Shown here: positions 5,180-37,926 of the stretch, piece by piece
Position numbering within the stretch: position 1 is the first letter of the stretch
Layout: every line of letters starts with the position of its first letter
Origin: Natranaerofaba carboxydovora
GTDB lineage: Bacteria > Bacillota > Natranaerobiia > Natranaerobiales > Natranaerofabaceae
Assembly (NCBI RefSeq): GCF_022539405.1
Contig: NZ_CP054394.1
Span: 2,674,501 to 2,738,500, forward strand
Direction of reading: 5' to 3'
DNA: 64,000 nucleotides
Program-made: the position numbers and the translations under genes
The notes under the pieces: generated by a model
The model's database searches: none
Seen by the model: only the letters and a program-made list of their open reading frames with translations
What the model was told of the DNA's origin: nothing

Positions 5180-6527
5180 ATTCGTAGTGTCCCCTTAGAG
5201 CTTTTTTAATAGAAGCTGCTTTTTTGAATGTTTCTTCATACTCTTCTTTTACATCACTATCCCAGACAATTCCTCCACCTACTTGAAAATATACTTTGTC
5301 ACCTTTTTTTACCATGGTTCTAATGGCAATATTAAGATCAAGGGAACCGTCAAAACCAAGATATCCTATAGAACCAGTATAAACATTCCTCTGAGTTGGC
5401 TCAACCTCGTCAATTATCTCCATGGCCCTGATTTTGGGGGCTCCTGTTATAGATCCTCCGGGAAAAGTAGCTTTGATAAGATCTATGACGTCCTTATCTT
5501 CACGAAGCCTTCCTACCACAGTAGCTACTAAGTGATGCACATTGGAATACTCTTCTAGCTTAAATAGCTCTGGCACTCTCACAGTGCCTGTCTCAGAAAC
5601 TCTGCCAATGTCGTTTCTCTCTAAGTCCACAATCATCAAAAGCTCTGCTTTATCTTTTTCGCTTCTTACAAGCTCTTCTCTATACATCCTATCTTCCTCA
5701 GGTGTTCTCCCTCTAGGTCTTGTCCCCTTTATTGGCCTGGTTTCAATCTGGTCACCTCTTAGCTGTATAAACCTTTCTGGTGAATTTGATAGAATATCAA
5801 CCTCTCCAAAATTCAAAAAGGCCCCAAAAGGTGCTGGACTAACACGCCTCAGATCCCTATAAAGTTCATAGCTTGACATGGGAACATTTCCTTCAAAACG
5901 CTGTGTCAAATTAGCCTGATATATGTCACCTGCTTCAATATAATCCTTAATCTTCTGAAGTGTAGAATAATATTCTTCCTTTTTGAAATTTGATTTTAAC
6001 TCCACCGGCGGGAAATCTTTTTCTTCATAATATATAGGGTCAATTCCTTCTCTTTCTGCTCTTTCAATTCTTTCGCATAATCTATCTATTTTTTCTTCTT
6101 CTTTAGAAGGGTTTAGACCGGGTGAAGCAACATAGGTCTTTTGTTCAAGGTTATCTACAATAATAACCGCATCATACAACCCAAAATATAAATCCGGAAC
6201 ATTAATATCATCTATAGCCGTTCTTGGAAGCTTTTTTTCGATATAGTGACAGGCATCATAAGAAATATACCCAACAGCACCCCCCACAAAAGGAAGATCT
6301 GAATCATTTTCAACATTATACTCTTTAATTTTTTGTCTTAAAACCTCAAACAAGTCTTCATCTGAATCTTTTCCCTTTATTATCTCGAAGGGCTCTGTAC
6401 CTATGAAGCTGTACCGTCCAAGCCTCTCAGGATTAAGATAGCTATCCAAAATAAAACTGTGATCTTCATCTCTAAATATTGTAAAAATTTGAAATGGATC
6501 CAAACTTGTCTTAATTTCTCGTATCAT
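5148..6527 (-). CDS. pabB: Aminodeoxychorismate synthase component I
   Basis: Chorismate-binding subunit that aminates chorismate to 4-amino-4-deoxychorismate with ammonia from PabA. The motif PIKGTRPRG carries the PabB-type lysine, where anthranilate synthase TrpE has alanine (PIAGT), so the folate assignment is supported by sequence as well as context. Other family blocks are [31 protein letters not shown] and [12 protein letters not shown]. At 459 aa it is full length. It overlaps pabA by 4 bp (ATGA) and pabC by 32 bp. Confidence 0.95.
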
Positions 6528-7120
6528 TTGTTAATTCTCCTTACTCCCTTATATTTTAGGAAATTTTCCAAAAGTTCATGACCTTCATCAGTCAGTACCG
6601 CTTCAGGATGAAACTGCACACCTTCTAGGGGGTACTCTTGATGCTTTATTCCCATTATTTCACCTGATTCAGTTTCGGCTGTAATCAAAAATTCCTCGGG
6701 CAAGCTCTCTTTTTCTACAACAAGGGAGTGATAACGAGTAACGTTAAGTGGATTTTTTAGCCCTTCAAAAACTCCCTTTTGGTCATGCCAGACGGGATGA
6801 ACTTTGCCGTGCACAGGTTCTAAGCCTTTTATCACGCTGCCACCAAAAACATGAGCAATTGTCTGATGGCCAAGACATATCCCCAGTATCGGCTTTTTGT
6901 CCTTGAAGTGTGAAACCACCTCCGTAGAAACCCCAGACTCAAGGGGAGTACAGGGGCCTGGAGAAATTACGATAATCTCCGGGTCTAATCTTTCAATTTC
7001 GTCAATTATTATCTCATCGTTTCTTTTTACCAGGACATTTTCACCTAGCTCTTCCAAGTACTGAACTAGATTATAGGTAAAAGAATCGTAATTATCTATC
7101 ATTAAAAGCAATTTATTCAC
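6524..7120 (-). CDS. pabA: Aminodeoxychorismate/anthranilate synthase glutamine amidotransferase
   Basis: Class I glutamine amidotransferase that releases ammonia for PabB. The catalytic cysteine is in GICLGHQTIAHVFGG and the His-Glu pair in VQFHPEAVLT; the start IDNYDSFTYNLVQYL is typical of PabA/TrpG. The 198 aa length is normal. It is the first gene of the eight-gene operon, about 90 bp downstream of a good promoter. No trp genes are in view, so it may also serve TrpE elsewhere, as in Bacillus where one subunit is shared. Confidence 0.95.
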   Translation of the reverse strand: MNKLLLMIDNYDSFTYNLVQYLEELGENVLVKRNDEIIIDEIERLDPEIIVISPGPCTPLESGVSTEVVSHFKDKKPILGICLGHQTIAHVFGGSVIKGLEPVHGKVHPVWHDQKGVFEGLKNPLNVTRYHSLVVEKESLPEEFLITAETESGEIMGIKHQEYPLEGVQFHPEAVLTDEGHELLENFLKYKGVRRINK

Positions 7121-7242: not shown

Positions 7243-7296
7243 CATAAGAAAATTTAAAGGAAAGAGTAAAAAAATATAGAACGTAACATAGGCGTA

Positions 7297-7520
7297 CTAG
7301 TTTGGCACAAAAAGTCTATTCACATAAGTATAAAGTTTTTAATTGATACATCTAAGATTCGACAATAGTCGAGATAAGGCTTCCAAATCAATGAACTCAT
7401 CCTGAGTTCGATTAGCTAATGACATCCTGTCATTAGGCCTTATCTCTCCTACTTCTCATCAAGATGTATTTCAATTAAAAACAAAACTTTGTTCATACGA
7501 CTTTTTGCACCAGAATCAAC
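7297..7520. repeat. Nested palindromic element bounded by inverted copies of the dispersed repeat
   Basis: The left arm (7297-7352) and right arm (7463-7520) are imperfect inverted copies of each other. Each contains the ~45-bp dispersed repeat seen elsewhere in the window. Inside is a 10-bp stem GAGATAAGGC/GCCTTATCTC (7371-7380 with 7437-7446) that encloses two hairpins, GAACTC-ATCCT-GAGTTC (7393-7409) and CTAATGAC-ATCCT-GTCATTAG (7416-7436). Their loops are identical. A further small hairpin TCGAC-aata-GTCGA lies at 7359-7372. The element fills most of the 441-bp gap between the divergent pabA and hisH. It could be a MITE-like insertion or a structured RNA; no protein is encoded. Confidence 0.75.
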
Positions 7521-7561
7521 ATCTAATTCTTCCTATTAATAGTAATTTCGGAGGTTTCAAA

Positions 7562-8264: not shown

Positions 8265-9026
8265 ATGCTTACTAAAAGAATTATACCCTGCTTAGATGTT
8301 AAAGACGGCAGGGTAGTCAAAGGTGTTAATTTTGTAAACTTAACTGATGCAGGTGACCCCGTTGATATTGCAAAAGCATATAACAAAATAGGTGCAGATG
8401 AGCTTTGTTTTTTGGATATAACCGCATCTTATGAAAAAAGGGATTTAATTCTTGATATTGTCGAAAAAACAGCAGAACAGGTTTTTATCCCTTTGACAGT
8501 TGGTGGAGGAATTAGAGATATAGAGGATTTTAGAAATGCTCTCTTGGCAGGTGCAGACAAAGTCTCTATTAACTCTGCCGCTCTTACCAATCCTTCGTTA
8601 ATAACAGAATGCGCCCGCCTTTTTGGGTCTCAGGCAGTGGTAGTAGCAATAGATGCAAAAAAAACCAGCAGTTCTAAATATGAAGTATTTGTAAAAGGCG
8701 GTAGAGAAAATACAGGTATTGAAGCAGTTAGCTGGGCAAAAAAGGCCGAAAGTCTTGGTGCCGGCGAAATTCTTCTTACCAGCATGGACAAGGATGGCAC
8801 CAAAGACGGTTATGATCTAGATATCACCAGAAAAATTAGTGGAGAGTTAAGCATCCCTGTAATTGCTTCTGGAGGCGCTGGTTCTATGAAAGATTTTTTT
8901 GATGCATTTTATTACGGTAAGGCTGACGCAGCTCTTGCAGCCTCCCTCTTTCATTACCAGGAAGTCGATTTAAAGGATCTAAAAAGATATCTCTATGATA
9001 ATAATATTGCTGTAAGATTAGAATAA
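8265..9026 (+). CDS. hisF: Imidazole glycerol phosphate synthase, cyclase subunit
   Basis: TIM-barrel subunit that makes imidazole glycerol phosphate and AICAR from PRFAR and ammonia. Canonical blocks are [19 protein letters not shown] at the N-terminus (catalytic Asp in CLDV), [19 protein letters not shown], and [19 protein letters not shown] with the second catalytic Asp. Length about 253 aa is standard. ATG 8265 is preferred, with GAGGTG at 8253-8258; an upstream in-frame ATG at 8244 overlaps the hisH end. The two genes form a separate his unit, so the rest of the pathway must be elsewhere. Confidence 0.96.
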
Positions 9027-9028
9027 AC

Positions 9029-9053
9029 CTTTTGCACCAGAATCAAGTTTTAA
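9029..9053 (+). repeat. Dispersed repeat, half copy overlapping the amidase stop codon
   Basis: CTTTTGCACCAGAATCAAGT and the following TTTAA match the right half of the ~45-bp repeat at 7477-7520 and 21072-21119. The minus-strand amidase stop (9045-9043) and its last codons lie inside this copy, so the repeat supplies the end of that gene. Confidence 0.75.
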
Positions 9054-21071: not shown

Positions 21072-21119
21072 AAAAACAAAACTTTGTTCATATTACTTTT
21101 TGCACTAGAATCAAGTTTT
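21072..21119 (+). repeat. Dispersed repeat, full copy upstream of ftsE
   Basis: AAAACAAAACTTTGTTCATA, then TTACTTTTTGCACTAGAATC, then AAGTTTTA. It nearly equals the copy at 7477-7520. The ends AAAACTT and AAGTTTT are inverted repeats. Confidence 0.8.
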
Positions 21120-28644: not shown

Positions 28645-28693
28645 TTCCCTTTTTCCTCTCCCTTATATCTCTTTCTTACTTGTATTAACTATT

Positions 28694-28731
28694 GATTTTG
28701 GTGCAAAAAGTCATATGAACAAAGTTTTGTT
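28694..28731 (-). repeat. Dispersed repeat, full copy after prfB
   Basis: Read on the minus strand CGAACAAAACTTTGTTCATA, TGACTTTTTGCACCAAAATC. It lies within three bases of the prfB stop (28737-28735). Confidence 0.75.
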
Positions 28732-37617: not shown

Positions 37618-37640
37618 TAAACTCAGTGAAAAGATAATAA

Positions 37641-37815
37641 TACTCGTTAGGTGAGGCTCCTAGATGAACATAGGCTGCTGCCCAAAAACGTCGAGAGACG
37701 CCAATGGGTAAAACAGGCACGGCCGGCTTAAGGCCTGTCTAAAGCAGCTGACCCTTAACTACTCTTACTGTCAATTGGTCTACGTCATCTAGTGCCAAAG
37801 CTTATACGAGGGGTA
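37641..37815 (+). promoter_or_regulatory. M-box (ykoK) magnesium riboswitch
   Basis: Conserved blocks occur in order: CGTTAGGTGAGGCTCCTAGA, GGCTGCTGCCC, AAAAACG, AGACGCCAATGGGT, AAGCAGCTG and AGTGCCAAAGCT. These are the hallmark segments of the Mg2+-binding M-box aptamer. High Mg2+ should favour the terminator at 37927-37950 and stop mgtE synthesis; a long AT-rich stem (TTAATTGATatgattATCAATTAA, near 37858-37883) may take part in the switch. Confidence 0.93.
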
Positions 37816-37926
37816 TAACTGCTTTAATTAATGTCAAATTGATAGTTAAATTAGTTAATTAATTGATATGATTATCAATTAATTGTTAGCGCTTTGATTA
37901 GCGTTTTGATGTTTTTTAAAAAGTAG

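Follow-up and report, generated by a model that had tools for sequence, protein, structure and literature searches.

Several described systems come close to the palindrome analyzed here. Similar palindromic repeats of bacteria include bcr1, Correia and RUP; they are likened to it by general features. Bacillaceae-1 RNA (RF01690) is defined by two hairpins with RUCCU loops, and CAGGA(U/A/C)G is the repeat of the E. coli RNA CsrB. Excerpts of the literature place bcr1 among palindromic bacterial repeats (PMC2267715), and the discovery paper, in an extract, lists Bacillaceae-1 as RNA 'Y' and cis-regulatory 'n' (PMC2864571). According to passages of a 2014 motif paper, the discoverers were not confident of the Bacillaceae-1 strand, and its reverse complement is predicted to bind CsrA (PMC4333381). 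In the titles and abstract beginnings of open-licence papers, no description of the present element was found. Like miniature inverted-repeat elements (MITEs) and palindromic repeats, it is short, geneless, intergenic and foldable, with terminal inverted repeats and target-site duplication. It differs from them in that its core is common to several genomes under three types of ends.

The window, meaning the whole 64,000-nucleotide stretch of DNA analyzed, spans C1:2674501-2738500 of a 3,264,732-bp contig of Natranaerofaba carboxydovora (G000, the own genome). The element sits between the divergent genes pabA (minus) and hisH (plus), and the following features are distinguished:

6524-7120, minus: pabA/trpG-type amidotransferase gene (TIGR00566 above its cut-off)
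7242-7214, minus: pab promoter-like site TTGTCA-17-TATAAT, outside the element (consensus scan; number of sites found not above shuffles)
7298-7517, no strand assigned: whole element, MITE-like (alignment of 40 genome copies and end definition)
7298-7316, plus: terminal repeat of the left end, in degenerate form here (aligned to the consensus GATTCNNNTGCAAAAAGTC)
7346-7353, plus: outer stem, 5' half, ATACATCT, pairing with 7462-7469 (inverted-repeat pair and fold)
7371-7380, plus: 10-bp closing stem, 5' half, GAGATAAGGC (inverted-repeat pairs; base pairs counted in alignments)
7384-7415, plus: hairpin 1, whole, with 5' bulge 7390-7392 and loop ATCCT 7399-7403 (AGGAT on minus)
7416-7436, plus: hairpin 2, with loop ATCCT 7424-7428 (AGGAT on minus)
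7437-7446, plus: 10-bp closing stem, 3' half, GCCTTATCTC (inverted-repeat pairs; base pairs counted in alignments)
7462-7469, plus: outer stem, 3' half, AGATGTAT (inverted-repeat pair with 7346-7353)
7499-7517, minus: right terminal repeat, exact GACTTTTTGCACCAGAATC (pattern scans)
7562, plus: ATG of hisH (TIGR01855 above its cut-off)

The preliminary description had proposed a nested palindrome here, and both hairpins were indeed found in place, enclosed by the 10-bp stem. Pattern scans of the window locate the inner part of hairpin 1, GAACTC-ATCCT-GAGTTC, at 7393-7409 and hairpin 2, CTAATGAC-ATCCT-GTCATTAG, at 7416-7436; arm pairs outside the 10-bp stem are present too and are weaker. The inner part of hairpin 1 was described correctly, but the hairpin is larger than had been supposed. 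It has a previously unlisted outer stem, in which CAAATC (7384-7389) pairs with GATTAG (7410-7415); this stem encloses a 5' bulge of 3 nt and has one mismatch in the window copy. What had been taken for two head-to-head copies of a dispersed repeat are really both arms of one element, exact at its right end and degenerate at its left. The element was also said to lie outside the pab leader, and within the limits of a consensus scan this agrees with the promoter-like site at 7242-7214 (minus), which for pabA is downstream of the element. Within the element, a sigma-70 consensus scan, which is a weak test, found no promoter-like site on either strand.

As RNA, segment 7298-7517 folds with -71.2 kcal/mol on the plus strand (z -9.7) and -86.8 kcal/mol on the minus strand (z -11.3), and 0 of 200 shuffles fold as well on either strand. 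The inner 80 nt also fold better than shuffles (z -7.4 on plus, -5.8 on minus). A chance inverted repeat is ruled out by these z-scores together with the copy number. Elsewhere in the window, an M-box magnesium riboswitch occupies 37636-37820 (plus, 153 bits).

The palindrome belongs to a family in its own genome. In a genome search with 7280-7540, 40 of 239 first-look candidates were scored, and at least 40 places have 80% identity or more to this segment. The 40 aligned copies define an element of approximately 220-225 bp with the ends GATTCTGGTGCAAAAAGTC ... GACTTTTTGCACCAGAATC, which also come as a CTAC/GTTG variant. At about 220 bp, in 40 aligned copies and with no transposase gene inside, it has the character of a MITE. 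The end pattern gives 109 and 114 matches on the two strands (223), versus 2 and 3 (5) for a reversed control. The core is taken as the inner 79 bp, in which the 10-bp stem encloses both hairpins with their NTCCT loops, and was searched with a covariance model of 79 positions built from 26 own-genome copies (R1). At E 0.05, this search for further core copies gave 52 matches in the own genome, of which about 45 are strong, and others in other genomes. Among the 38 copies with both ends, exact target-site duplications of 6 bp occur in 6 (0.70 expected from mismatched flanks) and of 7 bp in 4 (0.03 expected); none is visible at the window copy itself. The earlier choice had been between a mobile element and a CsrA-type decoy. 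The strong core copies, the terminal repeats, the duplications and the relatives in other genomes bear out the mobile half; the decoy half is no more than a possibility.

Copies lacking the twin loops had been expected to speak against the preliminary description, and such copies exist in part. Forty terminal-repeat loci drawn from outside the core set were read, and 20 of them lack the twin loops. These are elements of 43-129 bp with the second end nearby, several plainly having the same arms. Because about half of the loci examined outside the core set are core-less, elements can persist without the core. Near the 40 loci, no autonomous relative sharing these ends was recognised. An autonomous transposon was looked for beside lone terminal repeats, but the loci with a distant second end hold ordinary genes, and no transposase was recognised in seven translations. 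Named by eye, the proteins between the ends are D-alanyl-D-alanine carboxypeptidase-like at L141 and LigD-polymerase-like and MgtC-like at L176. At L164 (G000:C1:765018-767500), an arginyl-tRNA synthetase-like gene, also named by eye, lies between two half-elements approximately 1.9 kb apart. The window itself holds single terminal-repeat fragments at 9026-9045, 21094-21113 and 28693-28712, one of them directly after hisF. A phage or plasmid origin was rejected, as the element has no match in phage or plasmid records and the core pattern none in viral contigs.

Outside the own genome, a DNA search of 41 genomes found the core in 10 matches, all in G040. R1 detects it in 7 of the 398 phylum genomes. 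A second covariance model, built from 31 matches in seven genomes (R2), was run on 59 genomes of the G149 class and detects it in 16 of them, with a patchy spread. Where it is found, the core is usually multi-copy; R2 counts are at least 150 in G149, 55 in G081, 12 each in G002 and G201, 11 in G040 and 3 in G341. Many G081 copies have an identical score, and 20 fetched copies (17 distinct sequences) share a 262-bp stretch. The equal scores and this shared stretch suggest a recent burst in that genome. The flanks of two G081 element copies contain a lysine riboswitch (L244, 235-426) and a TPP riboswitch (L248, 430-534). In G149, about 15 core copies spaced at approximately 2 kb occur at L192 (G149:C1:1942804-1960000), with R2 matches up to 1981533. 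They lie among tandem cassettes that open with an RHS-like core end and continue into variable tips, and the core repeats could serve recombination between these cassettes.

The elements that carry the core have different ends. In G149, they are bounded by GATTA..TGCAAAAAG, and G000 and G149 share the end type GATT..TGCAAAAAG; 6-bp duplications flank 15 of 53 G149 copies (0.44 expected). The G002 end type is GGCT..GAGCC. Four of its five copies start with GGCTGTGTTAAA, two of these four having an altered first G, and AGAGCC closes all five. One copy (L099) is flanked by a perfect repeat of 8 bp, as judged by eye. The burst element of G081 ends in AGGANTTTCCCC, outside an inner CAAAAAG-type pair, and exact 8-bp repeats flank 6 of 20 copies (0.00 expected). 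Inside these differing ends lie both hairpins, with CTAATC or a close form. CATCTAA-like and AAGATG-like flanks occur in most of 22 copies from G002, G149, G081, G201 and G341 and of 10 copies from G040. What is new in the analysis is that, in several lineages, at least three types of transposon ends enclose the twin-hairpin core, which behaves as a conserved cargo. Judged from the sequences, the core seems to have passed as a module from one type of transposon end to another.

The pattern of change within the core distinguishes stems from loops. In an alignment of 31 rows from seven genomes fitted to the structure (A5), 19 of 30 stem pairs carry changes on both sides. These amount to 133 cells; shuffling gives 40.5 on average, and sliding the partners gives no more than 14. 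The own genome alone gives a weaker paired-change signal (4 of 30 pairs, 18 cells versus 8.8). The loops keep NTCCT in 34 of 39 own-genome copies for loop 1 and 32 of 39 for loop 2. In G149, where they are mostly CTCCT, the corresponding counts are 55 and 56 of 59. Exceptions in loop 2 are ATCAT in the type-1 copies of G081 and ATCGT in both G341 copies, and ATCGGC-like loop forms occur in the own genome. Private mutations fall in the core less often than its share of sites predicts, in 29 of 109 cases in G000 (p 0.022). The G149 count, 21 of 85 (p 0.018), points the same way but is biased by the choice of top-scoring cores.

In architecture and loops, the core matches the orphan Rfam family Bacillaceae-1. 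Both window loops are ATCCT and most copies have NTCCT, which corresponds to the RUCCU loops of that family. The two share neighboring hairpins with loops of this type, an A-rich 5' bulge in hairpin 1 and dispersed copies in some Bacilli. The window core differs in its stem sequences, is carried by terminal-repeat elements and does not lie beside rRNA. In a permissive search, the window copy matches RF01690 over its full length and in the right register with 17.2 bits, against a gathering score of 35. A search of the own genome at E 1 gives 0 matches, and TwoAYGGAY is absent among the Rfam matches of the window up to E 5. Six G040 elements match RF01690 at approximately 28 bits. Matches above the cut-off include leaders of 16S rRNA, three copies in G138 and one in G193 (L119), as well as copies dispersed in G086, G193 and G394; the match in G320 is below it. 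In the reverse direction, R2 matches 0 of 9 Bacillaceae-1 genomes at E 0.01. Applied to 18 loci, it hits Bacillaceae-1 sites three times, each time weakly and within G394 loci (E 0.018 in 54 kb at best). At L110, L121, L127 and L135 of G394, Bacillaceae-1 lies inside a dispersed repeat containing GCGCAAGCGCC, with at least 10 scored copies. By architecture, the window core is like Bacillaceae-1; membership is not established, because the score lies below the cut-off and the reverse model is weak.

Taken together, the palindrome is best explained, with a probability of roughly 0.6, as a MITE-like non-autonomous transposon with a conserved structured module that has a role of its own. This module consists of two hairpins whose loops read NUCCU (AGGAN on the complement), closed together by a stem. 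There is good support for mobility and for a conserved core. The core recurs inside at least three kinds of ends, with stems that change by paired substitutions and loops that stay nearly fixed. Since it outlives the transposon ends, the core would have a role that is not mere service to one transposase. As most copies sit between genes of the same direction (35 of 40 in the own genome, as a raw count), an RNA hairpin in read-through mRNAs would be the most likely form of this role. The two like loops may be presented to a loop-binding partner. The leading candidates for this partner would be CsrA, through AGGAN loops on the minus strand, and an anti-Shine-Dalgarno-like contact, through NUCCU loops on the plus strand.

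The acting strand was approached through wobble pairs and gene orientation. One-sided changes should be GU on the acting RNA strand, and AC read on plus equals GU on minus. Read on plus, own-genome copies have 15 GU versus 35 AC cells in the inner core and lean to minus; G149 has 19 versus 13 and leans to plus. The pooled p is 0.15; several cells share inherited blocks, and cells are therefore not independent events. The minus strand was rejected as a conclusion from wobble pairs, as the own-genome lean is not reproduced in G149. For orientation, the longest open frames in short flanks were taken as the flanking genes. In the own genome, 24 copies lie with and 11 against plus (p 0.041). Among 59 G149 copies, 22 lie with and 18 against plus, 12 are in other arrangements and 7 are unclear; among 20 G081 copies, the numbers are 7, 5, 4 and 4. 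Pooled, this gives 53 plus versus 34 (p 0.053), with no lean in G149 alone. Wobble pairs and orientation pull slightly opposite ways.

The absence of a consistent strand preference among the wobble pairs would suit a part that acts as DNA, the palindrome forming a cruciform or hairpin that aids transposition or replication. Its near-perfect pairing fits as well, and the short core-less elements look like central deletions of a palindrome. The paired changes would then stem from template-switch correction, which could produce them without selection. Such correction would not fix the loops, however, and cannot explain why NTCCT stays while the stems change; one core under three end types is also unlike a part read by a single transposase. 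A DNA-level part is considered an unlikely account. Comparable odds are given to action on the plus strand. Here, NUCCU loops in read-through mRNA would contact Shine-Dalgarno sequences, or serve in processing like the hairpins of 16S leaders, and insulate the downstream gene. NUCCU loops have a putative likeness to the 3' end of 16S rRNA, the loops of G149 are mostly CTCCT, and orientation leans to plus. In addition, at L107, L118 and L124 of G138 and L119 of G193, Bacillaceae-1 immediately precedes 16S rRNA and shares its (UCCU) strand, which bears on the strand question for Bacillaceae-1. Nevertheless, the orientation lean is only borderline when pooled and not visible in G149, and the own-genome wobble cells lean the other way; this proposal is held to be improbable.

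The remaining explanation is a CsrA decoy or binding site spread by the transposon, in which minus-strand transcripts of many copies would jointly titrate CsrA or place CsrA sites in operons. This hypothesis, reached in the preliminary description from sequence alone, is the same as the published prediction for the reverse complement of Bacillaceae-1 (PMC4333381). The minus-strand loops do read C-AGGAN-G, and a search of the genome gives two csrA matches above the cut-off, but some lineages lose one GGA. The window copy has GGA in more than one hairpin loop, with two AGGAT loops on minus, and both loops are kept in 30 of 39 own-genome copies. Spaced approximately 25 nt apart, the two loops would suit both RNA sites of one CsrA dimer. 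The loops also match the CsrB repeat, and, as in the CsrB/RsmZ sRNAs, they lie in hairpins and in pairs. Unlike these sRNAs, the element has only two sites, ambiguous strand signals and a spread by transposition, and the sigma-70 scan, weak as a test, gave it no promoter of its own on the GGA strand. Although the own-genome wobble cells favor minus, those of G149 and the orientation of the copies lean to plus, and Bacillaceae-1 before 16S rRNA is read on the UCCU strand. Loop 2 is without GGA in the type-1 copies of G081, both G341 copies and 7 of 39 own copies. The presence of csrA in 7 of 7 model-positive genomes, versus 278 of 391 others (p 0.20), was rejected as evidence because csrA is too common to be informative (285 of 398 phylum genomes). 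A CsrA decoy is rated as quite unlikely.

A bolder picture joins these elements, and it is held as a speculative and rather doubtful one. A module of paired GGA (or UCCU) loops would have been taken up by at least three unlike kinds of MITEs in Firmicutes, in tens to hundreds of copies per genome. It would wire operons to one loop-binding regulator, with CsrA as the prime candidate, and so form a transposition-spread sponge of the Csr type. What began as one palindrome is now, through the analysis, a family whose natural copies number in the hundreds across several genomes. For an orphan RNA family, the question of its strand and the CsrA link proposed for it in print become testable here, and a cargo structure that outlives its transposon ends is unusual for geneless elements.
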